From the NCBI RefSeq assembly GCF_006829085.1, contig NZ_BJTC01000010.1, positions 124,001 to 188,000 on the forward strand: 64,000 bases of DNA, given 5' to 3'. Origin of the DNA: Chryseobacterium sp. ON_d1 (GTDB lineage Bacteria > Bacteroidota > Bacteroidia > Flavobacteriales > Weeksellaceae). Under the pieces are notes generated by a model. That model did no database searches and had not been told where the DNA came from. It was given only the letters and a program-made list of their open reading frames with translations. Below are positions 44,476-63,419 of the stretch, piece by piece. Made by a program: the position numbers and the translations under genes. Positions within the stretch are counted from its first letter, which is position 1; every line of letters starts with the position of its first letter.

Positions 44476-45003
44476 TTATTCTGTCTTTTTTACAGTTCCT
44501 GTTCTGGTTGTCTTTGATTTGATTAATTTTTCTCTATCTTCAATGAATTCAAGAGCAGCACGGCTGTAAGCAAACTTTTTGGCCTCTTTAAGGGTTGCTA
44601 AAGCTTTTTTGTACTCAAAGTTTCTTTCCTGCAGAAGCGACAGGCAGTTGAGAATTTCCGATCTGTCAATTCCTTTCAGCTTTAGAGCAAATTCAATCAG
44701 TTTCTCTGCTTCTTTATAATCTTCATTATTCAGGAGACACTCAATATAATATTTTGGAGTATTTACATTTCCAATGTTATTCTGCATTGCTTCATCAAAG
44801 TACTTCTTAGCCGTTTCATAATCCTTCAATTCTTCTGAATATACTCTTCCCATCAGACAAAGGCTGTCTGCATCTTCCGGTTCGTAGGATAAGGCATAGT
44901 TCAGCGCATCCATGCACTCCGCAAGGTTGAAAGGAAAGTAGTCCAGCGCTTCAAAATAATATTTACTTTTAGTTAAGGTCATTTCTGTAGTTTTTAAGTT
45001 CAT
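44476..45003 (-). CDS. TPR-repeat protein, last gene of the RNA-repair operon
   Basis: 175 residues with tetratricopeptide-like helices: NLAECMDALNYALSYEPEDA, DSLCLMGRVYSEELKDYETA and KKYFDEAMQNNIGNVNTPK, about three repeats over 20-130, then a basic tail. Such domains mediate protein contacts. The start at 45003 overlaps prfH by 35 bases; an internal ATG at 44982 would reduce this to 14. Either way the genes are coupled. The role in the operon is unknown. Confidence 0.75.
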   Translation of the reverse strand: MNLKTTEMTLTKSKYYFEALDYFPFNLAECMDALNYALSYEPEDADSLCLMGRVYSEELKDYETAKKYFDEAMQNNIGNVNTPKYYIECLLNNEDYKEAEKLIEFALKLKGIDRSEILNCLSLLQERNFEYKKALATLKEAKKFAYSRAALEFIEDREKLIKSKTTRTGTVKKTE

Positions 45004-45667
45004 TTTTCAAGGCATTCCTTTGTTTTTTGAATGTCCTGTCTTCATAATTCTTTTTAAAATCTGTTCCTGAGAATGTACGAACCGGATTCCCACGCTCTAT
45101 CTGCATCTGAAGAGACCAGGTTTCTTTCAGGTTTCTTTCCAAATTTTGCAGATAGGCAGCCATTACCTTTTCTTTGAGTCTGATAACGGAACGTTTTTTA
45201 TTTTCCAGCTGCGAACGGGAATCCTGTACAAAAACAGTTTCCTTAGTGGGAATATGGGTAGCACGCACGGCAGTATTCACCTTATTTACATTTTGCCCTC
45301 CACTTCCCTGGCTTCTCGCAGTCTGAAACCGGATATCTTTTTCATTGAAATCGATCATTTTTATATTTTCCAATTCAAAAATTCCAATAAACCAATTGCT
45401 TCTTTTATGCAGTTTCCTGAATGTACTCTTCCCTATCCAGCAAACACTTCCCAGCCAGTTTTTTAAGAAAAGATTTATTTCTTTTCCTTTCAAAAGGATA
45501 GTCACAGATTTTAATGTCAGGTTTTCATCACCGTTTTCACGATGAATGATTTCGTATTCTATTGTATTTTGTTTTGCCTCTTCAAGAAAGGTCTTCAAAA
45601 CCCTGGCTACTACCCACTGGCATTCCAAAGGACCTCTTCCTGAAGTGATCTGTATTAATTTTTCCAT
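44969..45667 (-). CDS. prfH: Peptide chain release factor-like protein PrfH
   Basis: 232 residues. It has the peptidyl-hydrolase motif GGQ (123-125) in [20 protein letters not shown], the class I release-factor domain 3. It lacks the stop-codon-recognition domain with PxT or SPF. The N-terminus EKLIQITSGRGPLECQWVVA is specific to PrfH. In the described E. coli RtcB2-PrfH pair, PrfH frees ribosomes whose 16S rRNA decoding centre was cut, so RtcB can reseal the RNA. Here a polymerase-beta-like nucleotidyltransferase gene ends 2 bases upstream and rtcB follows that one. The window's canonical RF1 (prfA) is separate. Confidence 0.92.
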   Translation of the reverse strand: MEKLIQITSGRGPLECQWVVARVLKTFLEEAKQNTIEYEIIHRENGDENLTLKSVTILLKGKEINLFLKNWLGSVCWIGKSTFRKLHKRSNWFIGIFELENIKMIDFNEKDIRFQTARSQGSGGQNVNKVNTAVRATHIPTKETVFVQDSRSQLENKKRSVIRLKEKVMAAYLQNLERNLKETWSLQMQIERGNPVRTFSGTDFKKNYEDRTFKKQRNALKNELKNYRNDLN

Positions 45668-45669
45668 TT

Positions 45670-46215
45670 TTATATTGGCATTTTACTTAATAAAGGGTGC
45701 CCCACCGGATCTATCCCTTTTTGTAATAAATCTTTTGCGGCCATTACTGCCCAGCATTTGTCACTGGAGTGAATATTTCTGTAAAATGAAAGTAAAATAT
45801 CAGGTCTCACAACGGTAAAATCATTGGCTTCAACTGTTTCAAGATCATCTTTTTCAAAGAAGTCAATGGTAATTCTGTGAAATTTTTCATTTTCCAGCTC
45901 AACTGTTTTTTCATATCTGCGAAAGTTTTCCTCACTGGGCAAATGATCATACCGGGTCCAGACTTTCTGAAATCCTTCCTTCTGAAGAATGATCACTACG
46001 TCTGCTATATTTTCTTTCTTTACAAAAACATCAATATCCTTATGGTCATGGGCATGTTTATATTCCATATGTCCTGTTTCTGACATAAAATGCCATGCCC
46101 AGCCACCTGATAAAATGACTTTATCTCTTAATTTATCTAAAATTTCAAGCCCTAACCGGATTCTGAATTCCGGCCAGACTTCACCGTATCTTTTTATGTT
46201 ATGTGGTGCTCCCAT
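45670..46215 (-). CDS. Nucleotidyltransferase-like protein of the RNA-repair operon
   Basis: 181 residues. The fold marker is GG (37-38) in LSGGWAWHF, then D60-x-D62 in HKDIDVFV and a third acidic residue D118 in RITIDFFE, the metal-binding triad of polymerase-beta/minimal nucleotidyltransferases. Such enzymes transfer nucleotides to RNA, proteins or small molecules; the target here is unknown. The gene stands between rtcB (73-base gap with a 14-bp hairpin) and prfH (2-base gap). A role in RNA end healing or modification would fit the neighbours, as inference. I do not recognise a HEPN toxin partner. Confidence 0.78.
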   Translation of the reverse strand: MGAPHNIKRYGEVWPEFRIRLGLEILDKLRDKVILSGGWAWHFMSETGHMEYKHAHDHKDIDVFVKKENIADVVIILQKEGFQKVWTRYDHLPSEENFRRYEKTVELENEKFHRITIDFFEKDDLETVEANDFTVVRPDILLSFYRNIHSSDKCWAVMAAKDLLQKGIDPVGHPLLSKMPI

Positions 46216-46288: not shown

Positions 46289-47680
46289 CTACCTGTCCAT
46301 TCTCACAATTCTCGGCTGAAATGTTCCCAGGATATCTACCAGTTCACTCTGTGCATTCATCACTTCATTAATGTCTTTGTAGGCCATTGGTGCTTCTTCT
46401 GCATTTCCGCCCATCAGTGTGACATTTTTCAGTTTCAGTTCTTTTTTGATATCATGCTGAGTGAAAAGGTTTCTGCATTCTCCTCTTGAATGGGCTCTGC
46501 CCGCTCCATGCGATGCTGAGTTAAGGGATTCGGGGTTTCCTTTTCCGCGAACAATAAATCCTTTTGCCGTCATAGACCCCGGAATCATGCCCAGTTCATT
46601 TTCATTGGCAGGCGTTGCTCCTTTGCGGTGAACAATCACTTCTTTTCCATTATGGATTTCCTTCCATGCAAAATTGTGATGGTTCTCAATTCTGGCTTTT
46701 ACTCTTCCACCAACCGCTTTAACGAGCCTTCTGTGAATATCATCATGACAGGCTGAAGCATAATCTCCGGCGAGATTCATTGCGGTCCAGTATTCCAGTC
46801 CCAGATGAGTACTCAGATCCAGCCATGCGAAATTTTGAGCTTCTTTTGGCAACGGGCACTGTTCTACAGCCATTCTTGAGTAATATTGGGCAATCTCTGC
46901 TCCCAATCCTCTTGAGCCGCTATGAGAAAGAATCCCCAGATATTTTCCTTTTGGCAGGCCAATTTGTTCGTCTTCTTCAGTGATTTCCACTTCCCCGAAT
47001 TCTACAAAGTGGTTTCCGCCGCCCGAGGACCCCATCTGTTTGATCGCTTTTCCTTTTAATCTTCTTAAGATTGGAATCATATCAAATGTATCCCTGTCGA
47101 AAATCTCATGATCTATGTGAGATTTATGCGTTTCATACATCCCGAATTTTGTATGCTCAGCAAGCGCTTTTTCATACTTATCCCTTGCTCCTTCAAGATA
47201 AGAAACCGGTGTATCCAAAATACTAAGGCTCATTCTGCAGCCAATATCCATACCTACACCGTAAGGGATTACCGCATTTTCTACTGCCAGCACTCCTCCT
47301 ATGGGAAGTCCGTAGCCGCTGTGGGCATCCGGCATTAATGCTCCCTGAGTAGAAACAGGCAGTTTCAAAGCAGTATACAGCTGATTTTTTGCCTCTTCTG
47401 AGATATTAGTACCAAAAATCTGAAATGAAGCCCGCTGGGAATTCAGCATCCGCTTTTCAGTTTTTTTGGATGAAAGCAGGGTTTCTGCAATCTGTCCGAA
47501 GGTGAGATCTTTTTCAAATTCTTCCGGATTCAACAGGATTTCCTTTAAAAGAGATTTTACGTGGTGAATATTCTTCGTTGCAAAATTTCTTTTCATGACT
47601 TCCAATGCTACGTTTACGCTTTGGTTATTTGGATAGCCCAGTTTTAATATATCTTTTCCTTTTAGTTTTAAATTTCCCAT
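46289..47680 (-). CDS. rtcB: RNA-splicing ligase RtcB
   Basis: 463 residues. It joins RNA 2',3'-cyclic phosphate (or 3'-phosphate) ends to 5'-OH ends with GTP and Mn2+. Conserved active site seen: MPDAHSGYGLPIGG (116-129), GVGMDIGCRM with metal ligand C148, GGGNHFVEFGE (H224), HSGSRG (H253), VHRKGATPA (H351), and the guanylation motif with H391 in SASHGAGRAHSRGEC. It lies in an operon with a basic unknown protein upstream and nucleotidyltransferase and prfH downstream. This is the arrangement used for repair of rRNA or tRNA cut by ribonuclease toxins, rather than the rtcA-rtcB arrangement. Confidence 0.95.
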   Translation of the reverse strand: MGNLKLKGKDILKLGYPNNQSVNVALEVMKRNFATKNIHHVKSLLKEILLNPEEFEKDLTFGQIAETLLSSKKTEKRMLNSQRASFQIFGTNISEEAKNQLYTALKLPVSTQGALMPDAHSGYGLPIGGVLAVENAVIPYGVGMDIGCRMSLSILDTPVSYLEGARDKYEKALAEHTKFGMYETHKSHIDHEIFDRDTFDMIPILRRLKGKAIKQMGSSGGGNHFVEFGEVEITEEDEQIGLPKGKYLGILSHSGSRGLGAEIAQYYSRMAVEQCPLPKEAQNFAWLDLSTHLGLEYWTAMNLAGDYASACHDDIHRRLVKAVGGRVKARIENHHNFAWKEIHNGKEVIVHRKGATPANENELGMIPGSMTAKGFIVRGKGNPESLNSASHGAGRAHSRGECRNLFTQHDIKKELKLKNVTLMGGNAEEAPMAYKDINEVMNAQSELVDILGTFQPRIVRMDR

Positions 47681-47707
47681 TGTTTTTGTTTTAAATAACA
47701 GTTGGAC

Positions 47708-48442
47708 TTATTCGTCCTGTAAGCTTTCTGCAATCTCTGTTGCAGACATTGTGCAGGTCACATATTTCCTGCTTTTGATAAGTTTTCTTTGATACGTTTC
47801 TTTCCATGGATTTGACTTACATAAAATAGTCTTGTTCATAATCCCTATAACCTTATACTCTCCCAAATAGGAATCCAGCACTGCATATTCTTTTTCCAGC
47901 TCCAGATCCAAGGGTTTGTAATGAGTAATCATGTTGGGTTTTACTCTCAGAGTAAATCTCCACGGTTCAGTGAATTTATAGTAGGTTCCGAATATCTTAC
48001 GAACAGGGCAATAGTCTTCTTTCTTTTCAAAGTATTGTCTTTCTCTGTCGGTAAGCCCCAATTTCGGATCATTCCAGGAAAATGAAGTGATATACCTGAG
48101 CTTCTGTTCTCTTTCTACATATATCTTTCTTCCGAACTTTCTTTTCTTTTTGAGAAACTTGCGGTTTTCAGAATACGAATAGGTATTGATCTTCTTTAAA
48201 ATTCCTTCGAAAAAATCTCCATCTTTGGATTGCTTTACATCATCCCTCACTACAAAGAATCTTACAAATCCTTTTTGATAAGGTTTATCTAATGGAATCA
48301 ACGGAAGATTTCTTCTTATTTTCCAGAGTTCTCTACTACGTTTGTATTGTTTTCTTATCTGCTTTTCTACATCTTTTCTAATTGCTCTTTTTCTGCTTCT
48401 CATGCTTCTCAGCCGGGAAAACAGAAGGTTATTATTTTCCAT
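47708..48442 (-). CDS. Unrecognised, very basic protein heading the RNA-repair operon
   Basis: 244 residues. The N-terminal 60 residues are dense in Arg and Lys (SRLRSMRSRKRAIRKDVEKQ, then RKQYKRSRELWKIRR), and a second basic helix is KKKRKFGRKIYVEREQKL. The rest mixes aromatic and charged residues. No motif I know. Strong positive charge and the operon suggest RNA or ribosome binding, as inference. Its start lies 3 bases after a short inverted repeat. It ends 27 bases before rtcB, so the two are cotranscribed. Confidence 0.72.
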   Translation of the reverse strand: MENNNLLFSRLRSMRSRKRAIRKDVEKQIRKQYKRSRELWKIRRNLPLIPLDKPYQKGFVRFFVVRDDVKQSKDGDFFEGILKKINTYSYSENRKFLKKKRKFGRKIYVEREQKLRYITSFSWNDPKLGLTDRERQYFEKKEDYCPVRKIFGTYYKFTEPWRFTLRVKPNMITHYKPLDLELEKEYAVLDSYLGEYKVIGIMNKTILCKSNPWKETYQRKLIKSRKYVTCTMSATEIAESLQDE

Positions 48443-48445
48443 TGT

Positions 48446-48464
48446 TCACACAAGCCTGATGTGA
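48446..48464 (-). repeat. Short inverted repeat before the basic-protein ATG
   Basis: TCACA / TGTGA with a 9-base loop, 3 bases upstream of the start codon at 48442; could mask the start. A second repeat, TCAACT / AGTTGA, lies at 48497-48516. Confidence 0.3.
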
Positions 48465-48631
48465 GATCTTAATTTTTTATCTCGCACAGCTTTTAATCAA
48501 CTAAAATATCAGTTGAATGAATTAATAATAGACGAAATAGTTCTGAGGAATATTTCTCATCCTATTTTGCCTTTAATGACACTAAAAAAGATTTCGGGAA
48601 AACTTGAAGTTTGAAATATTGCGCAATAAAA

Positions 48632-48658
48632 AACCCGAAATCTCTACGACTTCGGGTT
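48632..48658 (-). terminator. Terminator/attenuator upstream of the RNA-repair operon
   Basis: 11-bp stem AACCCGAAGTC / GATTTCGGGTT (one G-U) with a GTAGA loop, followed by TTTTTT on the minus strand. The 3' arm GATTTCGGG can also pair perfectly with CCCGAAATC, which is the minus-strand reading of 48590-48598. Confidence 0.82.
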
Positions 48659-48682
48659 CTGATATTTCATTGTACTGTTATT

Positions 48683-48760
48683 CTAAGAATGTACCAAACC
48701 GCGAAGCCTTACCACCATAAGCGGTAATCCAACTGTAGAATTCTGATTTGTTCTGAACAT
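48683..48760 (-). CDS. 25-codon ORF in the leader transcript
   Basis: ATG at 48760, TAG at 48683. The predicted peptide starts MFRTNQNSTVGLPLM and ends VVRLRGLVHS. It lies between a near-perfect promoter and an intrinsic terminator, on the same strand as the RNA-repair operon. I do not recognise it. It may be a leader peptide, a small protein, or an accidental frame inside a non-coding RNA. A second 8-codon frame starts at 48670 and runs into the terminator hairpin. Confidence 0.4.
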   Translation of the reverse strand: MFRTNQNSTVGLPLMVVRLRGLVHS

Positions 48761-48800
48761 TGCTTCGTTGTTTTTAATTGTTAAACTTGATTTTCAGGTG

Positions 48801-48829
48801 CAAATATATACATTTTTCTGATAATCAAA
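48801..48829 (-). promoter_or_regulatory. Promoter of the leader unit
   Basis: Minus strand TTTG (48829-48826), 17-base spacer, TATATTTG (48808-48801). One of the best matches to the Bacteroidetes consensus in the window. Confidence 0.65.
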
Positions 48830-48839
48830 ATTATTTTTT

Positions 48840-49826
48840 TCACTTAAGGTGAATAATGCTGAGAAATATAGCGTCTATAACTTTTGTCATCCTATTGGTA
48901 TCCAGCGTTTCCAGAGTGTCAGTGGGTTCGTGATAGTTTTTATTTCTGAAGAAGGAAGAATCAGTGATCATAAGTGCAGGAAAATCAAAATTCCAATAGT
49001 TAAGATGATCAGAAAAATCCATTCCTGCCACAAATTTGGGGGCTGAGAAAGTTTCTGTTTTTATCTGTTCTGACCCTTTAAAATTTTCAATGAAATTTTT
49101 TACAAACGGACCTGCGCCACTGAATTTTTTGACCAAAGTAATAAAATCTCCTTTATCGCCATAGAACCAAGAAAGAAACCCTATAGGAAAACCCTGAGAA
49201 CCTTTTTCGTCACGGAAATAACCTATCATTTCTACACTGCCCATTCCATACACGTCGATCTTGTTATCCTTTAAATATTTTGCATGGACATAGCTTCCCA
49301 TATTTTCTGTTCTGAAATAAGGTGGTTCTTCCAACGTGTACGCAACTAGATCTACCCTGTACTTCAGCTTCTGCCCTTTCAGCATTCTTGCCAGTTCCAG
49401 GAGGGCAGTAACTCCGGTTGCGTTGTCGTCTGCTCCCTGCTGGTCTCCGCAAACATCATAATGCGCTCCAATAATAATCCTTTTGGTATTTTCTGTCCCG
49501 AAGGAAGTAATGACGTTTTTGTAGACTTTTCCGTCTACTTTATATTCCTGAAAAGAGGTACTGTCACCATAAGCAGCAAAGGTTTGATGAATGTAGTCTG
49601 CAACGGCATTAAGCTGATCAATATTTTTATGATTCCTGAATTGTGGAGTTTGGGTAAGTGCTGTTAAATGCTTTTTTACCAAAACGGTGTCTGCTACAAC
49701 CGGAGAGCTTTGTGCTGATAGATTATTCTTCCCCGAACCTACCAGAAAGAAACATATAACAATAAATAAGCCTACGAGAAGAAGTATTTTTTTCCTCGTA
49801 GGCTTTATAATTTTTTTCAGATTCAT
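48840..49826 (-). CDS. M28-family zinc peptidase
   Basis: 328 residues. An N-terminal membrane anchor or signal (about 13-30) precedes the M28 aminopeptidase-like fold. GAHYDVCG (first zinc His), GADDNATG (bridging Asp), TLEEPPYF (Glu base/ligand), and MDFSDHLNYWNFD (final His) are visible. It would remove N-terminal residues from peptides in the periplasm. The region encoding residues 8-20 contains an 11-bp inverted repeat. The gene lies after methylmalonyl-CoA mutase on the same strand (42-base gap). Confidence 0.9.
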   Translation of the reverse strand: MNLKKIIKPTRKKILLLVGLFIVICFFLVGSGKNNLSAQSSPVVADTVLVKKHLTALTQTPQFRNHKNIDQLNAVADYIHQTFAAYGDSTSFQEYKVDGKVYKNVITSFGTENTKRIIIGAHYDVCGDQQGADDNATGVTALLELARMLKGQKLKYRVDLVAYTLEEPPYFRTENMGSYVHAKYLKDNKIDVYGMGSVEMIGYFRDEKGSQGFPIGFLSWFYGDKGDFITLVKKFSGAGPFVKNFIENFKGSEQIKTETFSAPKFVAGMDFSDHLNYWNFDFPALMITDSSFFRNKNYHEPTDTLETLDTNRMTKVIDAIFLSIIHLK

Positions 49827-63225: not shown

Positions 63226-63314
63226 TTTTTTGCCAATTAATCATTTACTCCAACGGATTCTTCCGCAGACACACAAGACTTCAAGAAATGGAATTCATAT
63301 AGAGTATTGATCTC

Positions 63315-63419
63315 ACTTATCTCCCCCTTTGGGTTGGAATTAGCACCTTTACACTTCTGGAACCGTGCAGGTTGCTAAGGTTTCACGGGGCCAAATCCCT
63401 CCACCTTTCTTGATAAATC
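63315..63419 (-). promoter_or_regulatory. SAM-I (S-box) riboswitch
   Basis: Minus-strand sequence with all S-box hallmarks: P1 GATTTATC / GATAAGT; the kink-turn AAGAAAGGTGGAGGGA; GGCCCCGTGAAACCTTAGCA; P3 closed by TTAGCA / TGCTAA; P4 CCC AAAG GGG. No terminator follows before the receptor ATG, so control may be translational; a small CGGA / TCCG hairpin lies at 63254-63265. Confidence 0.92.

Follow-up and report, generated by a model that had tools for sequence, protein, structure and literature searches.

A short open reading frame with competing RNA helices as a putative translation-controlled attenuator of the rtcB-prfH operon in Chryseobacterium and its relatives

The rtcB-prfH operon of Chryseobacterium sp. 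ON_d1 raises the question of when a cell transcribes its RNA-repair genes, and of what signal would lead it to do so. To our knowledge, the sensing of ribosome damage and the switching on of RtcB-PrfH have been little worked out outside Pseudomonas and Escherichia coli. In an E. coli strain, RtcB2-PrfH protects against colicin E3, as stated in excerpts of PMC9223846. The operon studied here lies within the window, that is, the whole stretch of 64,000 nucleotides that was analysed. The initial annotation described its leader as a promoter, a 25-codon ORF, and an 11-bp terminator hairpin with T6, followed by a 9-mer complementary to the 3' arm of the hairpin. These elements are all present in the sequence (Table 1), except that the T-run is not separate from the stem, in which two of its Ts are paired. 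Judged from the sequence comparisons set out below, the leader is very likely a ribosome-controlled transcription attenuator of the rtcB-prfH operon, that is, a form of translation surveillance. Very probably, the short ORF is a decoy gene which, together with competing hairpins, switches the operon on only when normal translation of this ORF has failed; the RNA-repair genes are thus probably transcribed conditionally.

Table 1. Positions of the leader elements and of the operon genes in the window
Feature	Position	Strand	Basis or remark
Leader	between M28 peptidase gene (48840-49826) and operon (48442-44476)	minus	sequence
Promoter, TTTG-N17-TATATTTG	48801-48829	minus	sequence; Bacteroidota -33/-7 type
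Segment 1, AACGAAGC	48762-48769	minus	last base 1 nt 5' of start codon; partner is segment 2 (helix 1:2)
Short leader ORF, MFRTNQNSTVGLPLMVVRLRGLVHS, 25 codons, ATG..TAG	48683-48760	minus	sequence
Segment 2, GGCTTCGCGGTT, antiterminator strand	48697-48708	minus	within ORF, codons 18-22; partners segment 1 or segment 3
Segment 3, AACCCGAAGTC, terminator 5' arm	48648-48658	minus	alternative partner of segment 2
Segment 4, GATTTCGGGTT, terminator 3' arm	48632-48642	minus	pairs with segment 3; folding and sequence
T-run of intrinsic terminator, T6	48628-48633	minus	first two Ts also stem-paired
Segment 5, CCCGAAATC	48590-48598	minus	second partner of segment 4, 3' of terminator; T6 follows here
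244-aa protein, first operon gene	47708-48442	minus	without Pfam or NCBIfam match at E<=0.001
rtcB-type RNA ligase gene	46289-47680	minus	Pfam RtcB, E 6.7e-80
Putative nucleotidyltransferase gene	45670-46215	minus	weak NTP_transf_5 match, below cut-off
prfH, peptide chain release factor H	44969-45667	minus	TIGR03072, 201.8 bits, cut-off 166.65
TPR-repeat protein gene, operon end	44476-45003	minus	Pfam search and gene context

The terminator hairpin (48632-48658) consists of 11 bp, including one G-U, with the loop GTAGA. A program-made terminator scan of 47500-49500 listed none, though the hairpin is plain in both sequence and folding. The folding energy of the whole leader is better than that of 200 of 200 shuffles (z -3.1). 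Segment 2, which lies inside the ORF, forms a duplex of 11 bp with one bulged base with segment 3. It is also complementary to segment 1, so that the helices 1:2, 2:3, and 3:4 compete. Ribosome-controlled transcription attenuators classically have this layout. A strict scan of both strands of the window, requiring a promoter box, a short ORF, a terminator, and an antiterminator duplex together, found this architecture at a single place, the leader before the rtcB-prfH operon. The scan is low in sensitivity, missing some leaders that the model detects (for example, L246 and L249), and it also gives a few matches elsewhere in the 80 named loci discussed below (for example, in L244, L262, L282, and L300).

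Other features of the locus can be recorded here. Directly past the terminator lies a palindrome, ATTGCGCAAT (48618-48627), which is strongly conserved in the genus, and another short palindrome, TCTAGA, is found near the same spot in several g35 leaders. In several of the loci L034-L070, a stretch resembling AGGAGCTATTTCCCGCTTTCCGCTATATCTTT recurs between the terminator and the operon and looks like a dispersed repeat. Among the operon genes, relatives of the 244-aa protein (35-46% identity) occur near RtcB in other genera and families, and the putative nucleotidyltransferase gene was not found in the operon of some relatives.

The pairings are maintained while the sequences change. This was examined with a partner-swap test on 26 clade representatives, hand-picked from 62 distinct segment pairs, with 2000 permutations. 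The energies of native and swapped partners were -10.8 and -8.6 kcal/mol for helix 1:2, -14.4 and -11.1 kcal/mol for helix 2:3, and -16.1 and -11.9 kcal/mol for helix 3:4, and no swap out of 2000 was as good for any of them, a permutation count that is not a probability, the clades being related by descent and chosen by hand. Helix 4:5 is likewise preserved through compensatory changes (none of 2000 swaps as good), while the control pair 1:4 gave no signal (1238 of 2000). The 26 representatives thus show co-variation in all four helices. Specifically, helix 2:3 occurs as GGTT/AACC, GGCTT/AAGCC, GGACTT/AAGTCC, GCATT/AATGC, and GATTAC/GTAATC. In the window leader this duplex reaches -15.1 kcal/mol, which was matched by none of 200 shuffles of the same leader, and across the clades the native 2:3 energy was attained in 0-8 of 200 shuffles per clade. 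The segment tables hold 149 of 150 rows, with L099 omitted for want of the CTTC anchor. Segment 4 was cut too short in L053, L055, and L061, none of which is among the 26 representatives.

The existence of helix 2:3 also bears on how the leader could work. The initial annotation doubted that classic co-transcriptional antitermination would be straightforward because it saw the alternative partner in segment 5, the downstream 9-mer, and overlooked segment 2. That doubt is removed, as the alternative partner is segment 2, within the ORF, which is made before the terminator. The initial annotation suggested instead that segment 5 acts post-transcriptionally, with pairing 4:5 in the read-through RNA setting mRNA stability or processing. 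As the main explanation of the leader this is quite improbable. The compensatory change in helix 4:5 argues for it, as does the fact that most of the 26 clades have a plausible candidate for segment 5 (by eye it is weak in L123, L126, and L169), but segment 5 is made after the terminator decision and cannot replace an attenuator. A second terminator at segment 5 was considered and rejected: T6 follows CCCGAAATC in the window, but a T-run of at least four lies close behind in only 8 of the 26 clades (by eye), so that no second terminator is conserved. Segment 5 may add to attenuation rather than replace it.

The short ORF is as constant in its placement as it is variable in its product. In the genus, its length is 78 nt in all 69 aligned rows (55 distinct ORFs), which represent 69 of the 147 genus genomes with a leader match; L002-L004, which are not leaders, and L005, from the same genome as L073, had been removed before the alignment. 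Among the 26 representatives, which were partly chosen by requiring such an ORF, all have one of 19-29 codons that starts 53-66 nt 5' of the CTTC of segment 2, and in 24 it ends 15-24 nt past this CTTC. The stop codon is TAG in 17, TAA in 7, and TGA in 2. Up to segment 2, frame 0 contains no stop in 24 of the 26 clades, compared with 6 for frame +1 and 16 for frame +2; the exceptions, L122 and L123, have a stop just 5' of segment 2. Among 127 distinct leaders, frame 0 is open to segment 2 in 124, and the other frames in 13 and 83.

The leader peptide, in contrast, differs between genera (for example, MFKLNQFNTNNLPLSVVMLRAFTFS, MFNVSHLQIMNGFPTSGKS, MFVLNLTSQNIASGSDSVGMCLRGFSQS, and MTYIITRHYLSKTPGVFTGLLQDFTHT), and the recurring C-terminal LRG, LRA, and LRD reflect the RNA strand CTTCGTGG and its variants. 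Over codons 2-15 of the 26 clades, the most frequent residues are F (12%), S (12%), L (11%), T (10%), and N (9%), none of them dominant, and the runs of a single regulatory codon that characterize amino-acid biosynthesis attenuators are absent from these clades. Because the peptide is not kept between genera and no such codon run is present, the signal that is read is probably the act of translation and not the peptide.

R-X-R sequences are arrest motifs for macrolides, and R-L-R stands at codons 18-20 in many genus leaders. The leader could therefore be imagined as a nascent-peptide arrest sensor of one drug class, such as macrolides acting on R-L-R, but this is scarcely credible. In relatives these residues become GLRG, LRA, LRD, RFG, or LQD, changing in step with the paired RNA strand. 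Additionally, two g17 leaders stop 5' of segment 2, and in constrained folding a stall at R-L-R would cover segment 2 and favour termination. Macrolide arrest at R-L-R was rejected on these grounds. The terminator 5' arm with its loop, GAAGTCGTA, resembles one strand of the 16S decoding site. A mimic of the decoding strand was also rejected, as these letters become GAAGTTG, GAAGACA, GAAGGAA, and others in relatives.

The reading of the leader as a transcription attenuator suggests the following sequence of events. Transcription would start at about 48795. During translation at normal pace, segment 2 would lie under the ribosome throughout the synthesis of segments 3 and 4; with segment 2 covered, the 3:4 terminator would form and RNA polymerase would stop 5' of the operon, leaving it off. 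A ribosome held at the start or within about the first 13 codons would leave segment 2 free, and on the earliest codons it would also cover segment 1. Free segment 2 would then pair with segment 3, no terminator would form, and the repair operon would be transcribed. Of this, the arrangement of the elements, their linkage to the operon, and the compensatory changes are observed; we infer leader translation, termination, and read-through, and likewise the inducing signal, blocked or damaged ribosomes.

Folding calculations fit this scheme for a ribosome within the ORF and are equivocal when the leader is untranslated and, in the window leader, when the ribosome sits at the stop codon. Before segment 3 is made, helix 1:2 has a probability of 0.81-1.00 in all 26 clades. 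Constrained folding used a ribosome footprint of -14 to +16 of the P codon, which was our choice, and 24-26 clades per codon. With the ribosome at codons 1-13, the mean probability of helix 2:3 was 0.78-0.98, and with the ribosome at codons 17-24 it was 0.00-0.06. Equilibrium folding without a ribosome favours helix 2:3 (mean probability 0.83), and the untranslated state may be on, unlike in the classical trp case. Helix 1:2 forms first but may be displaced, with heuristic displacement barriers of 1-13 kcal/mol. A ribosome on the stop codon of the window leader leaves helix 2:3 still formed (probability 0.95, compared with 0.52 at codon 25), and therefore termination would need a ribosome on about codons 16-24. 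The corresponding stop-codon values are 0.88 in L118, 0.73 in L119, and 0.00-0.02 in L034, L124, L159, L160, and L171.

Because there is no run of one regulatory codon, the signal is likely a general failure of translation. The initial annotation had proposed both that transcription into the operon is conditional and that the leader acts as a sensor. The comparison supports both proposals, and it is the nature of the operon genes that would suggest ribosome damage as the condition sensed.

If the leader serves the operon, the two should be found together, and this is the case. In the genus sample, 147 of 148 genomes gave a leader match, and the sole exception (G078) is without the leader and also without a match to first-type RtcB at E<=1e-10. 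In the family sample of 197 genomes, first-type RtcB occurs in 93, of which 49 (of 50 sampled) belong to the genus and 44 lie elsewhere. In each of the 93, the model finds a match at E<1e-8 that shares contig and strand with the matched rtcB and lies 92-1086 nt upstream of it. These family matches are not independent of the model, since 24 of the 45 leaders used to build it came from other genera of the family. The initial annotation had named the absence of the leader from relatives that keep the operon as evidence against its proposal; every one of the 93 keeps it. Four family genomes with second-type RtcB only (G189, G216, G251, and G254) gave no match below E 1e-8.

The leader also stays with whatever remains of the operon. 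The family search at E<1e-8 gave one match per genome in 96 genomes, 93 of them upstream of rtcB. In G213 (L222), rtcB has been lost and the leader precedes prfH-TPR; in G153 (L221), both rtcB and prfH have been lost and it precedes the TPR gene. In G147 (L062), the intact leader stands alone, the genes from that of the 244-aa protein through the TPR gene being gone from the site. The neighbours upstream of the leader vary freely among relatives. As candidates for other genes using the same leader, seven weaker matches were inspected by eye and rejected, resembling ordinary gene-end terminators. A similar 5' stretch elsewhere in the genome (L002) was also rejected, as the match adjoins an unrelated gene.

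These data bear on the possibility that the leader is an independent small RNA, or a dual-function RNA encoding a micropeptide, that merely adjoins an operon with an undetected promoter of its own. Such an RNA would be expected to look in part as the leader does: with its own promoter and terminator it is about 170 nt long, it is strongly conserved (147 of 148 genus genomes), and G147 keeps it intact without the operon. A weak resemblance to a known small RNA points the same way. The best sub-threshold Rfam match on the leader strand is the Bacteroides sRNA BTnc005 (RF04178; E 5.6e-4), best aligned at the terminator, but its 26.5 bits are far under the gathering score of 174.8 and its middle is mostly unaligned. 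In Rfam 15, no family reaches its gathering score for the leader, and the whole window gives only an unrelated SAM riboswitch (RF00162, 78.9 bits, 63314-63419, minus strand). Despite these points the possibility is unlikely. The leader tracks the operon through the loss of upstream synteny and through partial loss of the operon itself and is present in 93 of 93 family genomes with first-type RtcB, its peptide varies between genera, and a co-varying helix 2:3 would be purposeless.

The promoter boxes lead to the same conclusion. The -7 consensus TAnnTTTG has been mapped in Flavobacterium psychrophilum, according to part of the text of PMC9723704. This box is found in exact form 5' of the short ORF in 21 of the 26 clade representatives, and between the terminator and the first gene in none of them, where shuffling expects 2.2. 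The statement in the initial annotation that no TAnnTTTG promoter lies between terminator and operon therefore holds across the clades, and an operon beside an independent RNA would have no exact -7 box there for its own transcription. Overall, an independent small RNA was rejected as the main reading since the leader follows the operon.

The attenuator-like leader extends beyond the family. Outside it, the order sample holds 24 first-type RtcB loci, of which 16 were examined (L159-L174). All 16 have a model match, and all except L165 have prfH in the stretch. In 7 of the 16 (L161, L162, L164, L166, L167, L169, and L172), a further gene lies between the leader and rtcB. None of the four second-type RtcB loci examined, out of 15 in the order sample (L175-L178), has the leader; L175 has a match on the opposite strand only, at E 0.09. 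The L165 leader was detected later and is outside the 26 representatives. By eye, its ORF and antiterminator (CAGTGCCGGGTT with AACCCGGAACTG) are unrelated in sequence and have the same layout. Leaders of unrelated sequence and the same layout are seen at L165, L247, L248, and L257, with peptides beginning MRLIKSTYQ, MRFIKSTYQ, or MRFTQSTYE; the stretch at these RtcB loci contains no prfH. Apparently, L165 and L257 come from one genome.

A further set of named loci comprised 80 loci among the matches listed, at least nine of which are genomes already present in the other samples. In 59 of the 80, prfH lies downstream, and 51 of these 59 have an upstream model match (E<=0.01), as do 7 of the 21 loci in which the stretch contains no prfH. 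Eight PrfH loci gave no model match; among them, the architecture is present by scan in the two from Aquimarina (L253 and L260), the locus is cut by a contig end in L273 and L287, and divergent leaders are visible by eye in L295 (Sphingobacterium siyangense) and L301 (Fulvivirga). The remaining two, L256 and L266, gave no leader match by the model at E<=0.01. Named carriers include Chryseobacterium, Epilithonimonas, Kaistella, Halpernia, Flavobacterium, Polaribacter, Tenacibaculum, Myroides, Zobellia, and Sphingobacterium puteale.

At the class and phylum level, 20 RtcB loci (L201-L220) gave no leader by the GAAG-based pattern, the model at E<=0.1, or a loose scan, and prfH is in the stretch in two of them (L209 and L211). 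Some of these loci carry structures of their own. L202 and L203 (family f22) have no prfH in the stretch but, as seen by eye and in an unrestricted scan, carry an attenuator-like leader of another kind about 230 nt 5' of rtcB, and the later part of its ORF (MLKQKETYRFELLNSDIRFMPWFFS in L202 and MLKQIGTYRFELPGSNIRFMPWFFS in L203) pairs with the 5' side of a terminator at -16.1 kcal/mol. In L209 and L211, very short ORFs (MTEQFYISSLFIAA and MKHLTSISPLSLIA) stand 5' of the RtcB-PrfH genes, with no terminator obvious by eye.

If the proposed control is real, a cell could produce these repair enzymes under conditions that block or damage its ribosomes. A bolder proposal can be made tentatively, and we consider it more doubtful than probable. 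The leader might be a direct, self-correcting gauge of ribosome integrity. Ribosomes with a cleaved or obstructed decoding centre would still initiate at the leader AUG but wait at the earliest codons, with segment 1 beneath them, and would thereby turn on the RtcB-PrfH that rescues and religates them; successful repair would restore normal translation and, with it, the terminator. Such a gauge would occur widely among Flavobacteriales, would have been rebuilt from unlike sequences in certain other Bacteroidota, and would parallel the case of Pseudomonas. The leader offers a concrete, small, and testable candidate switch with defined strands, conserved across a large environmental and host-associated order.

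In the open-access literature, which is part of the whole, no description of such a leader for Bacteroidota was found. A word search of the paper by Baranov and colleagues on the rtcB-prfH pair (PMC1586002) gave no match for attenuation or leader, and neither word was matched in the colicin paper (PMC9223846). Likewise, a word search of an attenuator survey (PMC2965389) gave no match for rtcB, prfH, Bacteroid, or Flavobacteri. For F. psychrophilum, leader-peptide attenuation has been proposed for amino-acid operons, and rtcB does not appear in the main text (PMC9723704).

The attenuators of amino-acid operons share with this leader an ORF and three competing helices. In those of the trp, his, and ilv type, the leader ORF is combined with the competing helices 1:2, 2:3, and 3:4. 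In contrast, the leader here is without a regulatory codon run, it precedes RNA-repair and ribosome-rescue genes rather than biosynthetic ones, and equilibrium folding predicts read-through also in the absence of translation. Another partial parallel is toiL of the E. coli topAI-yjhQ operon, a single uORF that, as described in excerpts of PMC12121999, responds to ribosome inhibitors of several classes, with stalling at different sites along it. A response of one uORF to ribosome inhibition is also what is proposed here. However, toiL acts on translation initiation and on Rho-dependent termination rather than through an intrinsic terminator.

The closest known case is PA5471.1-armZ-prfH of Pseudomonas aeruginosa. 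According to excerpts of two papers (PMC13041342, PMC12057347), the leader PA5471.1 attenuates armZ (PA5471, RtcB-like), which is adjacent to PA5470 (prfH). The leader is reported to be constitutively transcribed, its complete translation is said to lead to the 3:4 terminator, and ribosome-targeting drugs or an amber mutation at codon 3 lead to read-through. One of these sources states that the attenuation still needs confirming studies (PMC12057347, in part). In both systems, a short leader ORF precedes an RtcB-like gene paired with prfH, identified here as RtcB (Pfam) and PrfH (NCBIfam). They differ in phylum and promoter type, the peptide here varies by genus, and the likeness is one of layout rather than of compared leader sequence. 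ArmZ is described as an anti-repressor of MexZ, whereas nothing suggests such a role for the RtcB-type protein here, which is a predicted ligase. Leader-ORF attenuation of an RtcB-like and prfH pair has thus been reported from Pseudomonas, and what is new is the putative leader-ORF attenuation of rtcB-prfH in Bacteroidota, where it is widely distributed and follows a sequence logic of its own. The presence of such leaders before comparable gene pairs in two phyla suggests that this kind of control has been used for them either convergently or since ancient times.
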